47,449 bases of DNA. It comes from a virus. The stretch covers positions 1 to 47,449 of IMG/VR virus record IMGVR_UViG_3300046472_000153; one strand, 5' to 3'. Below the pieces are notes generated by a model. It had not been told where the DNA came from and did not search any database. It saw only the letters and a program-made list of their open reading frames with translations. Shown in pieces: positions 539 to 47,449 of this stretch. A program made the translations under genes and the position numbers. How positions within the stretch are numbered: the stretch's first letter is position 1; every line of letters begins with the position of its first letter.

Positions 539-618
539 ACCGAGCGCGAGAATCGAACCCGCAACCTCCGGCGACTCTGCAGAATCCCCGGCGCTCTATC
601 CAGTGAGCTAGACTCAGG
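539..618 (-). ncRNA. tRNA-like element with a non-decoding anticodon arm
   Basis: On the minus strand the order is: acceptor strand CCTGAGT, D arm (GCTC, ACTGGATA loop, GAGC), a variable part AGGTT, T arm GCGGG-TTCGATT-CTCGC, and acceptor strand GCTCGGT. Six of seven acceptor pairs form, with two G-T wobbles. Between the D and variable parts a normal 5-bp stem with a 7-nt loop cannot be drawn. Instead CCGG, one G-G mismatch, and GATTC-TGCA-GAGTC give a long hairpin with a TGCA tetraloop. No CCA is encoded. The 3' end lies 2 nt from the lipoprotein start. Best read as a tRNA mimic or decayed tRNA, not a working decoder. Confidence 0.6.
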
Positions 619-5951: not shown

Positions 5952-6587
5952 TCAGAACTGCTTCGTCTCGTGAAACTTCACATGCCCATCGTTATCCAGA
6001 TGCGCCATTTCAACCCGCAACCTCCAACCGCTAGACGTCTTGATCCGATGCGTCTCGACCATCAGCTGCTCGCCGTGTCTTGCATCTGCTCGTGTGGCAT
6101 CTACCGCCTTCATAACCCAATAGTGCGCCTCGACGAGACTCTGCTGCGAGATCCCCTCATAGCGCCTCTTGCATGCCTCATAACCGAGCCTCCACCAGCC
6201 CAGCACGCGCTGGGACTTATCTGAAACGCCAGCGCGATACTCGAATTGCTCGATACCTTTGGCGAAGATTCGTTCTGCCTCTGGTTCAAGAATCGGTGCA
6301 GCCTTGGGCTCGGGAATCTGCTTTCCGTCTTGAAACGCCGCAGCGTCTTTCCCGATGTAGTTCTGCCAGCCGCGACTTGGATCTAGCTCTTTGACGTAGA
6401 CCCCAGCTCCAATCGCCATCAGCTCATGCTCGATGCAATCGCGATCGTCGGGTCGATGCTCCAGTACGTCATGAGCAACAACGAACCCGCTGCCTGGGTC
6501 AAATGTCGGATGGTGGTTCGGTTTCCATCCACAGCGGAATCGCGAAAAGATCTCCATATTTGGTTCAGCTGTAAAACTCATTCTCAT
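5952..6587 (-). CDS. Unknown conserved early protein (211 aa)
   Basis: ATG 6587, inside the last codons of the upstream gene, is preferred (a longer reading would overlap more). Contains FDPGSGFVVAHDVLEHRP near residue 30 and DCIEHELMAIGAGVYVKEL, a His/Asp/Glu-rich region that could bind metal, then an acidic linker and WWRLGYEACKRRYEGI. The last 50 residues are beta-rich. I recall similar unnamed phage proteins with the AHDVLEH segment but no defined function. Confidence 0.6.
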   Translation of the reverse strand: MRMSFTAEPNMEIFSRFRCGWKPNHHPTFDPGSGFVVAHDVLEHRPDDRDCIEHELMAIGAGVYVKELDPSRGWQNYIGKDAAAFQDGKQIPEPKAAPILEPEAERIFAKGIEQFEYRAGVSDKSQRVLGWWRLGYEACKRRYEGISQQSLVEAHYWVMKAVDATRADARHGEQLMVETHRIKTSSGWRLRVEMAHLDNDGHVKFHETKQF

Positions 6588-6822
6588 GTTTAATCTTAGC
6601 CTCCCTGTCAAAATGGTCATACGCATATGCCGCTTCTTGTGCTCGATCTTCGCTCACGTGATCCGATTGCCAGACGGCAAACCCGACTCCGAATCGATCT
6701 AGGTCACGTTGATACACCGACCATTGATGCTCGTTACTGCACTCAGCGTCACGGCAAACCTCAAAGTCTTCTTGGCCTTCGCTATCCGGGTAGTGCGTTT
6801 TGTCAATTTCGAATGTCCTCAT
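6565..6822 (-). CDS. Small early protein preceded by the start-associated sequence (85 aa)
   Basis: Acidic, aromatic-rich sequence (MRTFEIDKTHYPDSEGQEDF, a C-x4-C pair at CRDAEC, then VYQRDLDRFGVGFAVW). Start ATG 6822 lies directly after SD AGGAGG within the shared 17-bp upstream element (6829-6845). Family unknown. Confidence 0.65.
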   Translation of the reverse strand: MRTFEIDKTHYPDSEGQEDFEVCRDAECSNEHQWSVYQRDLDRFGVGFAVWQSDHVSEDRAQEAAYAYDHFDREAKIKHENEFYS

Positions 6823-6828
6823 TTTCCG

Positions 6829-6845
6829 CCTCCTGAGTGTTAGAC
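6829..6845 (-). promoter_or_regulatory. Start-associated sequence, copy 1
   Basis: Minus-strand GTCTAACACTCAGGAGG immediately before the 85-aa gene start. Includes the SD; the GTCTAACACT part recurs before three other early genes. Confidence 0.65.
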
Positions 6846-6982
6846 TATTCAGTTACAATTTCGTTAACAGTGAACCAACGAATAACACCGTCGTCGCGTG
6901 CTTCGGCAAGCCGGTTGAAAACCTCGATAAATGCCGTCTCGTAGTTCTCTGCTTCAACTGTCACCTGAAATGTGTATGTCAT
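6845..6982 (-). CDS. Small early protein (45 aa)
   Basis: MTYTFQVTVEAENYETAFIE, then a helix and RWFTVNEIVTE. Looks like a small alpha/beta (ferredoxin-like half) protein. ATG 6982 has a strong SD (GGAGGAAGAA) and overlaps the stop of the upstream peptide (ATGA). Unknown family. Confidence 0.6.
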   Translation of the reverse strand: MTYTFQVTVEAENYETAFIEVFNRLAEARDDGVIRWFTVNEIVTE

Positions 6983-7077
6983 TTCTTCCTCCGATTTCTG
7001 TAAAAGAAAACCCAAACCCAAAGCGGCATTGAGCCAAAATAGCCAACTACAAACCAAAACCAAAAACTTTGTGTCAT
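6979..7077 (-). CDS. Aromatic-rich membrane peptide (32 aa)
   Basis: Reads MTQSFWFWFVVGYFGSMPLW, continuing VWVFFYRNRRKK. It is one membrane segment unusually rich in Trp and Phe, with a basic cytoplasmic-type tail. Flanked on both sides by ATGA overlaps and preceded by SD GGAGGAAGAA, so its reading frame is well supported despite the size. A single-pass inner-membrane peptide is inferred; the role is unknown. Confidence 0.6.
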   Translation of the reverse strand: MTQSFWFWFVVGYFGSMPLWVWVFFYRNRRKK

Positions 7078-7295
7078 TTCTTCCTCCTCTTCTCGATTCG
7101 TTCACTGTTAATCCGCTGTTTGACGGCGAGGCTATATGCCGCACCAATGGCGACAATCTCTTCTCGCCTTGTCTTCTCTGGACGCAATCCAATCGTATCG
7201 TTGGGATACAGCGTCACGACTAAGCGCTTTAGCTTTCCGGAGTCGCGTACCAGCGCTTCGCTCATTCGCGTTACCGGACTAATGAGCTTCGTCAT
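7074..7295 (-). CDS. Small basic conserved phage protein (73 aa)
   Basis: MTKLISPVTRMSEALVRDSG, then LKRLVVTLYPNDTIGLRPEK, TRREEIVAIGAAYSLAVKQR and a basic end. The VVTLYPNDTIGLRPEKTRR part is a short beta hairpin seen in small uncharacterised phage proteins. Overlaps the end of the glycosylase-like gene by 17 bp and the start of the next peptide by 4 bp. No function known. Confidence 0.6.
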   Translation of the reverse strand: MTKLISPVTRMSEALVRDSGKLKRLVVTLYPNDTIGLRPEKTRREEIVAIGAAYSLAVKQRINSERIEKRRKK

Positions 7296-7914
7296 TATCC
7301 GCCCCCAGCTCTGCAATGATCCTCTTCCATGTCACCCATGTAATAGCCTGAAGCTGATGCGGCAAGAGCCCCAAGCGCTTCGCGATGATGCCATAGTGCC
7401 ATGCCAGATGCCGATATTCGGCTAACCCGACGGCGCTAATCACCTCGCGGTCTTCGCGACGGTCATAGGCCAAGCACTTCGCGTGCCTGTCTACTGTGAT
7501 CTCTTCTGAACCATCCGGATTCAGGATGCAGCTGTAAAACGCGCGTGTCTTTGGTCCTGTCAATGGCAGGACATCAAGCGGATTTGCACCCTGCAAAATC
7601 TGCCATGCTTTGTTCACGTTCTTCCATCCATACACGCCGACATTGGGTTGTGGTTTGTTCTCGACGAAAGAGCGTACAAGCTCGTCTGCCTGTATCAGGT
7701 TCAACCCCCACGCGAGCCCGGGAGATATCGCTGCTATGACACCTGCCACTTCCCACACTGGCACACTGTAGCGCTCAGCGATTGCAAACGCGTCTCTGTG
7801 CGCGGTCGCGTACCAGTAGATACCTTGCTCGCGCTCGGCATCAGTCGCCTGATTGTAGACCTTCAGGATGTTCGTCTCAAACTTGCGAGACCACGGTCGT
7901 TTACGAATTGCCAT
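7279..7914 (-). CDS. HhH-GPD DNA-glycosylase-like phage protein (211 aa)
   Basis: Residues 60-75 (IAAISPGLAWGLNLIQ) and 92-110 (VGVYGWKNVNKAWQIL) are followed by LPLTGPKTRAFY (116-127) and EITVDRHAKCLAY (138-150). The last two correspond in order and spacing to the helix-hairpin-helix LPGxGxKTA and the catalytic-Asp segment xVDTHxxR of Nth/MutY/AlkA enzymes, with Asp142 as the candidate catalytic residue. Phage proteins with this layout are usually annotated only as unknown. Base-excision or modified-base removal on DNA is therefore an inference. Overlaps the upstream gene by 14 bp. Confidence 0.6.
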   Translation of the reverse strand: MAIRKRPWSRKFETNILKVYNQATDAEREQGIYWYATAHRDAFAIAERYSVPVWEVAGVIAAISPGLAWGLNLIQADELVRSFVENKPQPNVGVYGWKNVNKAWQILQGANPLDVLPLTGPKTRAFYSCILNPDGSEEITVDRHAKCLAYDRREDREVISAVGLAEYRHLAWHYGIIAKRLGLLPHQLQAITWVTWKRIIAELGADNDEAH

Positions 7915-8098
7915 ACATCTTCCGTTCTGCTGGGGTTGTAATGAGCCCAGCCTTAATCATCGCCATTGCCGTACGCCCGTATGAGCCTTGTAGCTGCCAT
8001 ACAGAACCATCGTTTACCATTTCCTGAAACATTTCGATGTCCTGTTCTTCAGTCGTTGAGCCGTTTTCGTAATCAATAATCTTGTCAATGTTTACCAT
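7901..8098 (-). CDS. Small conserved early phage protein (65 aa)
   Basis: Contains IIDYENG, EEQDIEMFQEMVNDGSVWQL, QGSYGRTAMAMIKAGLI, a pattern I recognise from many short phage proteins whose role is unknown: an acidic first helix followed by a conserved WQLQGSYGR tract. Start ATG 8098 carries the shared start-associated sequence (8107-8123). Confidence 0.75.
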   Translation of the reverse strand: MVNIDKIIDYENGSTTEEQDIEMFQEMVNDGSVWQLQGSYGRTAMAMIKAGLITTPAERKMYGNS

Positions 8099-8106
8099 TG
8101 TCTTAG

Positions 8107-8123
8107 CCTCCTGAGTGTTAGAC
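8107..8123 (-). promoter_or_regulatory. Start-associated sequence, copy 2
   Basis: Minus-strand GTCTAACACTCAGGAGG, identical to copy 1, before the 65-aa gene. Confidence 0.65.
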
Positions 8124-8143
8124 GTTGTGTTTTGAAAAACGTT

Positions 8144-8190
8144 TCAAAGCGCGTGGCAGGAATCGAACCTGCCACACCAGTTACGCGCTA
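8144..8190. repeat. 47-bp exact direct repeat, copy 1
   Basis: Identical to 8386-8432. It spans the minihelix, the stop codon of the gene before it, and TCAAA beyond the 3' end. Confidence 0.9.
8149..8188 (-). ncRNA. tRNA-like minihelix 1 (acceptor plus T arm only)
   Basis: Minus strand: GCGCGT (8188-8183) pairs with ACGCGC (8154-8149), and GGCAGG-TTCGATT-CCTGCC forms a perfect T arm with a canonical 7-nt T loop. The 3' side is 12 continuous paired bases, the length of a tRNA acceptor/T stack. On the 5' side only 9 nt (AACTGGTGT) replace the D and anticodon arms. G1 of the helix is the last base of the TAG stop of the 58-aa gene. No CCA is encoded. Confidence 0.65.
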
Positions 8191-8364
8191 GATGCCGATA
8201 AAGGCATCATGGATCGGCTTTACAGCCTCGACGATAAGCCTGAAATCATCGGCATTGACTGTCTCAATGTCAATGTCTTCTGGCTTTGCTTTCATGAAGG
8301 CATCCGTCGCGCGATCTGAGTATCCTGTCTCAGTCAAAATCCTTCGTGCTTCGTTTTCTGTCAT
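8188..8364 (-). CDS. Small acidic early protein (58 aa)
   Basis: Reads MTENEARRILTETGYSDRAT, then DAFMKAKPEDIDIETVNADD and FRLIVEAVKPIHDAFIGI. It is helical and acidic. ATG 8364 has SD GGGAG; the TAG stop is the beginning of minihelix 1. Family unknown. Confidence 0.65.
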   Translation of the reverse strand: MTENEARRILTETGYSDRATDAFMKAKPEDIDIETVNADDFRLIVEAVKPIHDAFIGI

Positions 8365-8385
8365 AGGTCTTCTCCCTTCGTTCGA

Positions 8386-8432
8386 TCAAAGCGCGTGGCA
8401 GGAATCGAACCTGCCACACCAGTTACGCGCTA
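8386..8432. repeat. 47-bp exact direct repeat, copy 2
   Basis: Pairs with 8144-8190. The two copies flank the 58-aa gene, so recombination between them would delete exactly one gene cassette. Confidence 0.9.
8391..8430 (-). ncRNA. tRNA-like minihelix 2
   Basis: Same 40-nt sequence as minihelix 1: 6-bp acceptor, 9-nt linker, 6-bp T stem with TTCGATT loop. G1 is again the third base of the TAG stop of the gene before it (107 aa). Confidence 0.65.
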
Positions 8433-8753
8433 TCCTCCAAAACCTTCGTAATTTTCTTGGGGCATTGCTTGGACGATAACCATATCGCCTACTATGCCTA
8501 CTTGTGGACCATACTTAGCCTGATACAAGGCAGTGGCGCGACGATTGACCTGCAAGCCAAGGCCGATATCGTCTTCGTTAGCATATGCCGTGGTAACGCG
8601 CGCGCCATTGAATTTAGAGCCATCCAATTGGACGTGTTCAATATAGCCTCCGACCTTGCGCTGTAGAACCTTGTAATCTGGTTCTTCGAATGTCACGGTA
8701 TCAGGCGAGCCATCCGCATGAATGACAGTCAGCTTACGAAACTTTTTGTTCAT
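8430..8753 (-). CDS. Unknown early protein (107 aa)
   Basis: Starts MNKKFRKLTVIHADGSPDTV, beta-rich, with YKVLQRKVGGYIEHVQLDGS, then ATTAYANEDDIGLGLQVNRRA. This resembles small phage proteins of the DUF3846 type (a KVGGYIE and NEDG/D-x-x-x-L-x-x-N-x-x-A layout), in which the GGYIE and N-E-D parts recur. DUF3846 is my best match; its function is unknown. Start overlaps the 31-aa gene (ATGA); the stop opens minihelix 2. Confidence 0.65.
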   Translation of the reverse strand: MNKKFRKLTVIHADGSPDTVTFEEPDYKVLQRKVGGYIEHVQLDGSKFNGARVTTAYANEDDIGLGLQVNRRATALYQAKYGPQVGIVGDMVIVQAMPQENYEGFGG

Positions 8754-8845
8754 TTTGCGCCTCTCTTTTTTCCAAACCTTTTGTTGTGCAATCGGATAAG
8801 TTGCATTGCCAGCCTTTCGCCGTCTGTTAGTAATTGCTTTGCCAT
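8750..8845 (-). CDS. Tiny basic peptide (31 aa)
   Basis: Reads MAKQLLTDGERLAMQLIRLH and ends NKRFGKKRGAK. ATG 8845 follows the shared start-associated element (8854-8870) and the stop overlaps the next start (ATGA). Basic C terminus; nucleic-acid contact is possible but unproven. Confidence 0.6.
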   Translation of the reverse strand: MAKQLLTDGERLAMQLIRLHNKRFGKKRGAK

Positions 8846-8853
8846 TGTCTTAG

Positions 8854-8870
8854 CCTCCCTAGTGTTAGAC
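8854..8870 (-). promoter_or_regulatory. Start-associated sequence, copy 3
   Basis: Minus-strand GTCTAACACTAGGGAGG before the 31-aa gene; differs from copies 1 and 2 only next to the SD. Confidence 0.6.
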
Positions 8871-8908
8871 GTTGGGAGGCGCCATCCGTTAGCATGGCGC
8901 CTCGTGGA

Positions 8909-9283
8909 TTAGACTGCTATCGTCTCGCGCTTGGCGACGTCGTATATAGCCAATTGCTTATTGGTTCGAGCAATCTGTAACGCTGTACCGCGGTCCGCAA
9001 CGTTGATAGACAGGTCGACATATGTAAACCCGTCATCGACGTTGTACCACGTGCCGATGTGCAGGTTACTCACATTGAGACGCTGCGCATTAGGAACGTT
9101 CTCACGCATATACCGGATGATTTGCAAGTCACCAATAACGCGTTCTGGAATCTTTTGCTCATACCCTGCAAGAGATACCATGTAACCAGATATTGGCGCT
9201 GTCCCATCGACAAGAGAATAGCTTGCTCCGCCATTCCTGTAATGGTCTAACCAAACGCTGTATACAATCTGTTCAAATCTCAT
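8909..9283 (-). CDS. Unknown early protein (124 aa)
   Basis: Beta-rich: MRFEQIVYSVWLDHYRNGGA, SYSLVDGTAPISGYMVSLAG, IGTWYNVDDGFTYVDLSINV, then DRGTALQIARTNKQLAIYD. The last part looks like a small domain that ends on an AIYD strand. Similar unnamed proteins occur in actinophages and plasmids, to my memory, with no known role. ATG 9283 has SD GAGGAGG. Confidence 0.6.
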   Translation of the reverse strand: MRFEQIVYSVWLDHYRNGGASYSLVDGTAPISGYMVSLAGYEQKIPERVIGDLQIIRYMRENVPNAQRLNVSNLHIGTWYNVDDGFTYVDLSINVADRGTALQIARTNKQLAIYDVAKRETIAV

Positions 9284-9306
9284 ACTAGCCTCCTCATTCG
9301 ATCATT

Positions 9307-9350
9307 GCCTAAGCGCGGACTCGAACCGCGCTTTGTGCTACCAGCTAGGC
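9307..9350 (-). ncRNA. tRNA-like minihelix 3 (different sequence)
   Basis: Minus strand: GCCTA (9350-9346) pairs with TAGGC (9311-9307); AGCGCGG-TTCGAGT-CCGCGCT forms a 7-bp T-type arm with a canonical loop. The 5+7 pairs again give a 12-base 3' stack. Twelve nt (GCTGGTAGCACA) remain between the helices; CTGGTAGCA resembles a D-loop remnant. The TAG stop of the 38-aa gene lies inside the first strand. Independent sequence, same architecture as 1 and 2. Confidence 0.6.
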
Positions 9351-9461
9351 TATTTTGGAAATGATTCTCAGCGCGATTTGCCGAGCCCTACGATTCTCGG
9401 ACAAGTCTGCTACTTCCTGCAAGCTGATAATCAGTCTGTCTCTCAATTCAGTGTTTCGCAT
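9345..9461 (-). CDS. Small helical peptide (38 aa)
   Basis: Reads MRNTELRDRLIISLQEVADL and continues SENRRARQIALRIISKIA, basic and helical. ATG 9461 follows the start-associated sequence (9466-9482). The stop lies within minihelix 3. Family unknown. Confidence 0.6.
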   Translation of the reverse strand: MRNTELRDRLIISLQEVADLSENRRARQIALRIISKIA

Positions 9462-9465
9462 GTGG

Positions 9466-9482
9466 CCTCCTCAGTGTTAGAC
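9466..9482 (-). promoter_or_regulatory. Start-associated sequence, copy 4
   Basis: Minus-strand GTCTAACACTGAGGAGG before the 38-aa gene; one base differs from copies 1 and 2. Confidence 0.65.
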
Positions 9483-9520
9483 GTGACACCTACCAATCGG
9501 TTAGCAGGTGTCACACGTTG

Positions 9521-9775
9521 CTATTCAGGGCGACGTTCGACAATTGCCGTGATGTACTCGGCATACCATGTAGGCCAATCAGCATCAGGATGCCCTATGC
9601 GCGTCTCGTAGGCGTGATGGGCATCCGCAGCTTGGCGTAAACGCTGCGCGAGCAAAGCGACGTTTTTGTGATGCGACCTTGCTTCGATTTCCGCAACTAA
9701 CATCTGTTTTGGATAGGCGCGGATATCGTCTATGTGCAGTGTACCGTTTTCGATTTTTTCTTGTAAATAAATCAT
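9521..9775 (-). CDS. Small early protein (84 aa)
   Basis: MIYLQEKIENGTLHIDDIRA, then a basic helical middle (EARSHHKNVALLAQRLRQA) and WPTWYAEYITAIVERRPE. ATG 9775 has SD GAGGAG, which lies just beyond the GC-rich hairpin 9796-9817. Not recognised. Confidence 0.6.
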   Translation of the reverse strand: MIYLQEKIENGTLHIDDIRAYPKQMLVAEIEARSHHKNVALLAQRLRQAADAHHAYETRIGHPDADWPTWYAEYITAIVERRPE

Positions 9776-9795
9776 GGTAAAAACTCCTCAAAATG

Positions 9796-9817
9796 CCCGG
9801 GGGATTGCTCCCCCGGG
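9796..9817 (-). terminator. GC-rich hairpin between the first two leftward genes
   Basis: CCCGGGGG (9796-9803) pairs with CCCCCGGG (9810-9817) with a 6-nt loop. On the minus strand it is followed by CATTTTG, a poor U tract, so it may attenuate, or stabilise the upstream mRNA, rather than fully terminate. Confidence 0.45.
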
Positions 9818-9825
9818 GAAAAAGG

Positions 9826-9999
9826 TTAGATGTTGCCGAGCCCGTCAAAGGTACGGCGTGTGTAGTATTCGTGCAATGCTTGGCGCACGATACCATCGGG
9901 CGTAGTGTCATGTTGAGACTTGAGTTTGAGAATGGCGCTGATAAATTCAGCGCGGTCTGTGGGATTGTCTAAGGACTTGCGGGACGTTACCTCGTTCAT
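9826..9999 (-). CDS. First leftward early gene (57 aa)
   Basis: MNEVTSRKSLDNPTDRAEFI, then SAILKLKSQHDTTPDGIVRQ and a short tail ending DGLGNI. Promoter-proximal in the leftward arm and followed by a stable hairpin, so probably strongly and early expressed. Mixed charge and helical; a small regulator or host-takeover peptide is possible. ATG 9999 has SD GAGG. Confidence 0.6.
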   Translation of the reverse strand: MNEVTSRKSLDNPTDRAEFISAILKLKSQHDTTPDGIVRQALHEYYTRRTFDGLGNI

Positions 10000-10012
10000 G
10001 TGGCCTCACAAT

Positions 10013-10149
10013 GTTGTTGTGCGGTTATGTCCGCACGGCAGAAACAATCGACTAGTGAAATCTACTAAATGGATAACCGATAGTCCATACGTAGAACTAC
10101 GTAATTTTCGGTACGTATAACTACGTAGTTAACCGCATGCTGCAACAAC
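10013..10149. promoter_or_regulatory. Dyad enclosing two paired TACGTA sites (operator or iteron cluster)
   Basis: GTTGTTG and CGGTTA (10013-10027) are mirrored by TAACCG (10130-10135) and CAACAAC (10143-10149). Inside, TACGTA starts at 10088, 10098, 10112 and 10122: two copies of TACGTA-NAAC-TACGTA separated by 8 bp. The regular 10/14/10 spacing and symmetry suggest binding of a dimeric regulator or initiator. Confidence 0.6.
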
Positions 10150-10237
10150 ATAATAGAGCATAACTACATAACGAAATGGAATGCAGTTAGAATGTCGTGC
10201 ATTCATGCAGTTAGCGACATAATGCTGAAACATGCAT

Positions 10238-10263
10238 GCTTACCCTTCCCTAGAAGGGTAAGC
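10238..10263. promoter_or_regulatory. 11-bp perfect hairpin
   Basis: GCTTACCCTTC (10238-10248), loop CCTA, GAAGGGTAAGC (10253-10263). No T tract follows on either strand, so an operator, cruciform or origin hairpin is more likely than a terminator. Confidence 0.55.
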
Positions 10264-10564
10264 AGTAGCATGTTTGGTCCAGCATGCCTCGGATGTTGTT
10301 CGAGACTGGCAAAAATCGATTTTCTATTGTTTTCAACGACTTAGCGATATGGCCTTATTTTGGCCATAGACGGGCCATCGCGCGCTCGATTTCCGGAACT
10401 GGGCTCTATACCTGCCTTGCATGTCGAAGGCATGCTCTTGCCGAAAGGCCACTGAAATGCGTTGGGTAGAAAATGAATAATATTCACCTATTATCAATAG
10501 GTTACGGACACCTATGCATAAAGATGCATTGGATTTTGGTATTCGAATTGCTCAGGGGCTTGAT

Positions 10565-46738: not shown

Positions 46739-46953
46739 TAGTCAGAATCTATCCAGTTATCAAGAATCTTTCCAGCCGCTTCCCGCGCTTCTGATAAGCC
46801 GGATTGCGGAAAAGAGTCATCAAACTCGCAATGACAACACGCAAACTCCGGGCAGGTTTCGTCAATAGGCATTTCATCCCACTCATAGCACCAGTGTTTC
46901 CAAACACCAGTCAGAGATTTGAACTTTGCGCGAAGAACTGCTCCTGGAGTCAA
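46738..46953 (-). CDS. Small acidic protein before the polymerase (71 aa), TTG start
   Basis: TTG 46953 overlaps the TGA before it, the same arrangement as the left-end peptide. MTPGAVLRAKFKSLTGVWKH, then an acidic domain with CPEFACCHCEFDD (four cysteines). In the left copy of this region the peptide at 1-73 takes this place, so gene content differs between variants. Unknown. Confidence 0.6.
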   Translation of the reverse strand: MTPGAVLRAKFKSLTGVWKHWCYEWDEMPIDETCPEFACCHCEFDDSFPQSGLSEAREAAGKILDNWIDSD

Positions 46954-47180
46954 TGCCGCACCCCGCACGGACAACTGGTGTTTACATAGGCATCGTACGT
47001 CTCAGCCCACTGCAGCGCTTCGGCCATCAGATTATCCGCATCGATACCCTTAAATACCCGCAATTTGCGGAACCCGCGGTAGTCGAAGTAATGCAGCACG
47101 ATCATCTTGTCGCCATCCATGGTGAAGATGGTATCGACGCTGAATCCCGCATTATGAATCTTGTCAAACCAGTCGTTCAT
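46950..47180 (-). CDS. Conserved small phage protein (76 aa), right copy
   Basis: Same gene as 70-300 with RVFKG in place of RIFSG. ATG 47180 overlaps the stop of the 54-aa membrane gene (TAATG). It lies where the polymerase operon begins. Confidence 0.75.
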   Translation of the reverse strand: MNDWFDKIHNAGFSVDTIFTMDGDKMIVLHYFDYRGFRKLRVFKGIDADNLMAEALQWAETYDAYVNTSCPCGVRH

Positions 47181-47344
47181 TAATTTACCTCATCCCAAAA
47201 TATGCTGAGGACCAGAAAAGATGTGGCGCCTATAACCGCGAGAACAGATGCGAATGCGTCCATATGCCAATAAAGACGCCAGCAGAACCACTCGAATGCA
47301 ACCCCGGAAAAGAATGCCCCGAAAGTTACGCAGAATTTATTCAT
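47180..47344 (-). CDS. Membrane protein present only in the right copy (54 aa)
   Basis: MNKFCVTFGAFFSGVAFEWF, CWRLYWHMDAFASVLAVIGA, TSFLVLSIFWDEVN: two hydrophobic segments and an end (IFWDEVN) that recalls the DILWEEFF peptides. Inserted cleanly between two genes with an ATGA overlap on one side and TAATG on the other. An accessory gene of one phage variant. Confidence 0.65.
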   Translation of the reverse strand: MNKFCVTFGAFFSGVAFEWFCWRLYWHMDAFASVLAVIGATSFLVLSIFWDEVN

Positions 47345-47449
47345 TTGCTCACCTTCTCCACTTGGTATGCGATCCCCATCTTCTCCGGCAGGCACACTCC
47401 ACATCCTATGGCTTTCAGCGCCTCTTGCAAGGCTTCATCGTCGTCTACC
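47341..47449 (-). CDS. Lipoprotein gene, 3' part only
   Basis: The last 35 codons or so of the same gene as 297-536, identical in sequence where they overlap, cut by the contig edge. Confidence 0.75.
   Translation of the reverse strand, partial: VDDDEALQEALKAIGCGVCLPEKMGIAYQVEKVSK

Follow-up and report, generated by a model that had tools for sequence, protein, structure and literature searches.

Candidate elbow-only tRNA mimics at gene ends of a phage early operon: members of a recurrent RNA class that may mark sites of mRNA cutting

The IMG/VR virus record IMGVR_UViG_3300046472_000153, a stretch of 47,449 bases analysed here at its full length and called the window, encodes a T5-A1-like protein, a DNA polymerase A, a terminase and a helicase, and therefore represents a tailed phage. 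Its early operon carries three tRNA-like minihelices, all on the minus strand, each placed at the end of a gene. Judged from sequence and pairing, these minihelices belong to an RNA class that is absent from Rfam and that recurs at gene ends in many unrelated phages. We consider it fairly likely that they are cis-acting gene-end tRNA mimics at which the tRNA-maturation enzymes RNase P and RNase Z cut polycistronic phage mRNA. The elements of the window are the following.

8149..8188, minus strand: minihelix 1, with a 6-bp acceptor, a CTGGT linker, a 6-bp T stem and the loop TTCGATT; N73 is the T at 8148.
8391..8430, minus strand: minihelix 2, of the same sequence as minihelix 1.
9307..9350, minus strand: minihelix 3, of different sequence, with the loop TTCGAGT and the linker CTGGTAGCAC; N73 is the A at 9306.
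8131..8148, minus strand: small hairpin TTTGAAA-CGTT-TTTCAAA just 3′ of minihelix 1, a recurrent second part of the cassette (read from the sequence; p=0.055 when taken alone).

A preliminary description of this DNA had placed three elements at these positions, the first two identical and the third different in sequence and loop, and all of them are present as described, on the minus strand. Minihelices 1 and 2 (GCGCGT-aactggtgt-GGCAGG[TTCGATT]CCTGCC-ACGCGC) sit in a 47-base perfect repeat (8144-8190 and 8386-8432), and minihelix 3 reads GCCTAG-ctggtagcacaaa-GCGCGG[TTCGAGT]CCGCGC-TTAGGC-A. In all three the acceptor and T stems form a 12-bp stack, which in minihelix 3 divides either as 6+6, one pair being G-T, or as 5+7, both of which had been proposed, and every T loop falls within TTCRANY. 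The TAG stop said to lie at the start of or within each element is also found there: G1 of minihelix 1 (8188) is the last base of the TAG (8190-8188) that closes the open reading frame (ORF) 8188-8364, G1 of minihelix 2 (8430) is the G of the TAG of ORF 8430-8753, and nucleotides 4-6 of minihelix 3 are the TAG (9347-9345) of the 38-aa ORF 9345-9461. The loss of both the D and the anticodon arms, which had likewise been claimed, is half right, as the anticodon arm is gone and a segment of the D loop is retained: the linkers of all three minihelices carry CTGGT, the counterpart of the D-loop GG. In tRNA, the D-loop GG docks on the T loop, and this remnant leads us to predict that the tRNA elbow is kept in the window minihelices. 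ARAGORN and Rfam at gathering thresholds made no call anywhere in the window, and the nearest sub-threshold Rfam match of minihelix 3, mascRNA (RF01684), is not significant (19.2 bits against a gathering threshold of 42.5). A degenerate longer tRNA-like sequence with an odd anticodon region (GAGTCTAGCTCACTGGATAGAGCGCC...GGGTTCGATTCTCGCGCTCGGTA), at 538-615 on the minus strand of the window, received no ARAGORN call either.

Window positions 6500-10500 used as a DNA query matched none of 50,697 phages, the 107-aa protein of the operon had no match when searched against phages and viral contigs, and an exact 26-mer of minihelix 1 was not found in viral contigs. The closest phage by the A1-like protein (64%) is a 28-kb fragment without the operon, and minihelices occur in none of the 25 relatives examined, which were found through the T5-A1-like protein. 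Since these searches yielded no close relatives of the operon, recurrence of the shape was sought elsewhere. When 2.13 Mb of related phage loci and the window were scanned with a descriptor, the matches were the three window minihelices, one more in the window (539-592, part of the degenerate tRNA) and a doubtful one elsewhere. The gapped pattern TAGC-CTGGT-GGTTCGANTCC, which does not demand the 12-bp stack, matched at least 119 viral stretches; about half of its matches were full tRNAs and were taken out with ARAGORN, and a perfect 12/12 stack was present in 34% of the 53 distinct non-tRNA matches, compared with 0.9% when the 3′ side was shuffled. A pattern without the stop codon matched 16 viral stretches, and one without stop codon or D loop gave at least 104 distinct matches. 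Among the matches listed for the latter, 40 were tRNAs and 48 were minihelices, not tRNAs, whose T stem has 5 bp or more; TGG stands in the linker of 35 of these 48 listed minihelices, and 39 are close to where an ORF of 40 or more codons ends. Matches in L323 and L326 and to actinobacterial tRNA-Arg were discarded as full tRNAs, and L219/S-BM3, with a broken T stem, was judged a degenerate tRNA relative. Construction of a covariance model had been suggested as a check, and a model made from eight elements of other phages recovers all three window copies (E-values of 4.2e-5, 4.2e-5 and 0.0038). Run on 1.12 Mb of unselected phage DNA, a wider covariance model with the window in its training set gave no match at E<=0.5.

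The related elements were collected from 47 contigs, which fall into 33 groups that share no flanking protein. Among 62 distinct sequences, 97.9% of the pair cells hold standard pairs, and cells with double changes number 232, compared with 64.3 ± 6.3 in shuffles and at most 54 with slid partners; fitting of the alignment to the model tilts the precise figures towards structure, but the gap to both controls is large. The length of the stack is held at 11-12 bp across the class. Compensatory changes, which the preliminary description had asked to be sought in related phages, are thus abundant in the class, and between the Mycobacterium phages Fowlmouth and Cuke, compared at eight matching gene ends, there are 17 of them, with one one-sided change and no broken pair. 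No family of Rfam release 15 covers the class elements at gathering thresholds, and the Fowlmouth stretch searched against Rfam matched no family even at E<=1.

The covariation contradicts, for the class, the simple tRNA decay that had been named among the outcomes that would refute the preliminary reading. Under such a view the elements would be what decay has left of ordinary phage tRNA genes, surviving by chance; some phages, such as S-BM3, do have full tRNAs between their genes, and there the T stem of one relative of the class is broken, while forms that lack only the anticodon arm exist (L202, L264 and L298). The double changes nevertheless preserve pairing, the same parts are kept and lost across 33 unrelated contexts, and up to 12 copies per genome are found, at gene ends only, all of which makes chance survival very improbable. 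Ordinary tRNA genes, meaning a cloverleaf with an anticodon arm, were found by ARAGORN or Rfam neither in the window nor in the Fowlmouth and Cuke blocks. The L202, L264 and L298 sequences, which resemble tRNAs and keep the D arm, are possible intermediates; in L264 and L298 they lie directly 3′ of stops.

Position is the second property that unites the class. In 74 of 80 distinct elements, an ORF of 40 or more codons has its end within −60 to +8 nt, compared with 39.5% at random positions, in a test made on raw ORFs and not on annotation. The commonest distance from element to stop is −7 to −10, the stop is overlapped in 13 of the 80, and the association with gene ends persists for patterns that demand no stop codon. 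The nucleotides around the stack are also constrained in these 80 elements, with A at N-1 in 60 and G at N1 in 73 (counts partly biased by the search patterns), A at N73 in 62 and C at N74 in 61. A CCA end is present in only two, N74-N75 usually being CG (31) or CT (24). A strong hairpin follows downstream in 50 of the 80, and in 41 of these it starts 0-5 nt after N73, with a peak at 3; in an earlier set, the hairpin was better than 95% of shuffles in 15 of 34 cases.

BLAST searches with the elements led to the Mycobacterium phages Fowlmouth, MrMiyagi, Cuke and Indlulamithi and to Benedictvirus phages such as Cuco, as well as to Arthrobacter phage Pitbull, Streptomyces phage TG1 and the Lactobacillus phages LBR48 and JNU_P2. 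Copies repeat gene after gene, with ten in Fowlmouth, 12 each in Cuke and Indlulamithi, 11 in the L463 record (a 109-kb phage) and five in the L300 phage, where each copy is 1-9 nt from a stop and is then followed by a hairpin and a ribosome site. All ten model matches in Fowlmouth fall at 33.8-41.1 kb of its 69.7 kb and nowhere else; most gaps of genes 39-60 carry a minihelix, each different, and in the gap after gp40 a hairpin with a GNRA loop takes its place. The annotated genes Fowlmouth gp47 (L474 2840-3115) and Pitbull gp39 (L344 2916-3062) each span a minihelix and are probably mis-started or spurious.

This arrangement bears on the decoy role raised in the preliminary description. In the form considered here, excised 40-nt RNAs would act in trans as mini-tRNAs and mislead tRNA-cutting defences or host proteins such as the CCA enzyme, EF-Tu and synthetases. 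Such proteins recognise this part of a tRNA, and identical copies within one genome are seen in the window (two), in the L300 phage and in the L317 phage. In Fowlmouth and Cuke, on the other hand, neighbouring gene-end copies differ in sequence while their position is kept, as expected for cis elements, and the downstream hairpin belongs to the pattern. A role tied to gene ends while the sequence varies does not support decoys, which we regard as improbable.

In the Lactobacillus phages (L342, L343, L207 and L304), the elements are ~92-94% alike, with diverged flanks, and stand just upstream of the integrase; in JNU_P2, the element is also upstream of a second, longer, separate tRNA-like sequence. 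The place just before the integrase gene in LBR48 and JNU_P2 would suit attP sites carrying the 3′ half of a tRNA. Such a site would be a single copy that matches the 3′ end of a host tRNA, whereas the elements number three to twelve per genome, their 5′ acceptor strand is present and covaries, and the longer tRNA-like of JNU_P2 comes separately after the element; we consider attP sites still less probable than tRNA decay.

The strongest rival is a passive barrier at gene ends, because plain hairpins share the role. The elements would then provide stability or insulation without any cutting, by blocking 3′ exonucleases or the drift of terminating ribosomes into the next gene, or by aiding transcription termination, and their resemblance to tRNA would be that of a convenient stable fold. 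Plain hairpins do stand in for a minihelix in some gaps of the same operons, including three read from the sequence of the window.

8876..8903, minus strand: plain 10-bp hairpin in the gap after ORF 8909-9283, where a minihelix stands elsewhere.
9483..9514, minus strand: plain hairpin (GTGACACCT...AGGTGTCAC) in the gap after ORF 9521-9775.
9796..9817, minus strand: plain hairpin (CCCGGGGG...CCCCCGGG) in the gap after ORF 9826-9999.

A barrier would also agree with the location of the element directly after stops and with L204, in which the element is followed at once by a terminator-like hairpin. Yet a bare hairpin needs no T loop, D-loop GG, A73-C74 or 11-12-bp stack, and all of these are conserved. 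Moreover, a terminator-like site, meaning a G+C-rich stem with a T run, was looked for at the window minihelices and none was found, and the downstream genes follow in the same direction as the minihelix operon with ribosome sites of their own. For these reasons a purely passive barrier appears unlikely, although less so than any of the other alternatives.

Cutting by tRNA enzymes, proposed as RNA punctuation in the preliminary description, is the reading best supported by the compensatory conservation of the fold, the position after stops and the repetition gene after gene; the enzymes, the cuts and their purpose are what we infer. Each element would fold as the upper half of a tRNA, with a 12-bp acceptor/T stack, a T loop and a D-loop remnant that could rebuild the elbow. 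As in mitochondrial tRNA punctuation, host RNase Z, or an equivalent, would cut just after N73, and host RNase P would cut before G1. After the 3′ cut, the message of the next gene would carry a short hairpin close to its 5′ end, a known means of resisting decay, and the preceding message would either end in the minihelix or lose it. Stem-loops at the 5′ terminus are in a position expected to protect mRNA from decay. Because the stop codon is close to or inside the element, a terminating ribosome would keep the element unfolded until its departure, so that cutting would come after translation. The features kept (12-bp stack, T loop, D-loop GG, G1 and A73) are those read by RNase P and RNase Z, and the tRNA features lost are those needed for decoding. 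An acceptor stem with a T stem-loop makes up pATSer, an established model substrate of RNase P (PMC10465520). Some phage RNAs and mRNAs are known targets of RNase P (PMC11143913), and t-elements at the ends of plant mitochondrial mRNAs are cleaved by RNase P and RNase Z (PMC11658184). As a wider and more tentative proposal, elbow-only mimics, often with a 5′-protecting hairpin, might split early operons into single-gene messages, host enzymes making both ends and the ribosome at the stop codon delaying the cut, and might have evolved repeatedly or be widely shared.

Several observations weigh against cutting by RNase P and RNase Z. All three window stops are inside the element, and cleavage by RNase P on the 5′ side of G1 would cost the message some or all of its stop codon; this is easier to reconcile with RNase Z acting alone, or with cutting only after translation, than with an obligatory RNase P cut. 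The full RCCA end favoured by bacterial RNase P is absent from most copies, and the plain hairpins in other gaps, in the window and after gp40 in Fowlmouth, indicate that part of the role may be generic. The remaining points concern the right-end RNA of mycobacteriophages D29 and L5. The D29 element has a long insert, and the covariance model misses it as a whole; the 3′ end of the L5 RNA is read as termination by the authors who described it (PMC5712189); and the match between D29 and L5, suggestive only, is based on distance from the right end, their right ends differing by small indels.

The D29 tRNA-like stretch itself (L480 8480-8595, minus strand; ~47.98-48.09 kb of the D29 record) includes this long insert and is placed at the 3′ side of the abundant and toxic right-end RNA of D29-type mycobacteriophages. 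It ends at ~47,980, 1,147 nt from the right genome end, within a stretch conserved in 171 records. In L5, the abundant right-end RNA is processed and has its end 1,107-1,157 nt from that of the genome, which agrees in position with the D29 tRNA-like and so fits the cutting model; the passages of the source paper that were consulted do not describe the D29-type site as tRNA-like (PMC5712189).

The principle of cutting between genes at tRNA folds is already known from mitochondria, where tRNA folds between genes are cut by RNase P and RNase Z and mRNAs are thereby released. The mitochondrial marks are decoding tRNAs, whereas the phage elements are elbow-only mimics without an anticodon, whose cutting we propose. 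In phage T7, RNase III processing sites, which are double-stranded stems, lie between early genes; these too are processing structures at gene ends of an early operon, but they are not tRNA mimics. mascRNA of MALAT1 (RF01684), also tRNA-like, fixes the 3′ end of an RNA by way of RNase P and RNase Z; it differs from the phage elements in belonging to a eukaryotic long non-coding RNA. Plant mitochondrial t-elements are also tRNA-like, stand at mRNA ends, are cut by tRNA enzymes and are not aminoacylated (PMC11658184), whereas the phage elements are ~40-45 nt long, show covariation across many sequences and can be repeated at successive genes. With pATSer the phage elements share their architecture, as natural counterparts of a laboratory minimal substrate (PMC10465520), although pATSer is a constructed hairpin and the phage elements add the CTGGT linker and mostly lack CCA. 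The SAS/ESAS repeats of Cluster K mycobacteriophages likewise occupy small intergenic gaps, some with inverted repeats, but they are tied to starts, are near-fixed in sequence and have no tRNA fold described (PMC3203893). A literature search retrieved mitochondrial punctuation, t-elements and RNase P substrates and no phage gene-end tRNA mimics, in agreement with the earlier statement that no phage counterpart was described, and the phage form without an anticodon appears to be undescribed in the literature searched.

If cutting occurs as proposed, the elements would offer phages a general route from a polycistronic transcript to separate messages with host enzymes and no phage nuclease, and would show that the minimal RNase P/RNase Z substrate, so far mainly a laboratory construct, also occurs in nature. 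The question bears on how expression is set gene by gene in phages with few promoters. The class is present in sequenced phages of M. smegmatis mc2155, which makes the idea directly testable. tRNA finders overlook this class of structured RNA in phage genomes, and some phage genes appear to be annotated across its elements.

The early operon of the window further comprises the following features around the minihelices.

8188..8364, minus strand: ORF of 58 aa, closed by minihelix 1.
8430..8753, minus strand: ORF of 107 aa, DUF3846-like (PF12957; phrog_3777), closed by minihelix 2.
8909..9283, minus strand: ORF of 124 aa (phrog_17808), next after minihelix 3.
9345..9461, minus strand: small ORF of 38 aa, read from the sequence, with its stop within minihelix 3.
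8106..8125, minus strand: shared leader with a Shine-Dalgarno sequence (ACGTCTAACACTCAGGAGGC) before ORF 7901-8098, of repeat family D5.

The 20-base leader ACGTCTAACACTNAGGAGGC is repeated on the minus strand at 6828-6847, 8106-8125, 8853-8872 and 9465-9484, ahead of several early genes. Variants of the minihelix shape were also seen in other settings. The L317 phage was not taken as a core case, its elements being in longer non-coding gaps and not right after stops, and was kept as a variant. The same shape occurs in two Streptomyces genome contigs (L335 6407-6449 and L337 7809-7852), with no clear gene end upstream. In a 97-kb virus record (L354 1469-3321, minus strand), three identical and two different minihelices lie in long non-coding gaps; the TTAAAAAT-like boxes and GGTGAT ribosome sites that come after them hint at an archaeal host. 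Finally, the ends of the window contig repeat each other (70-405 and 46950-47449) over 246 bases at 93% and over 110 bases at 100%, the two matches having different offsets; a circular genome, or a terminally redundant one with a variant end, could give this pattern.
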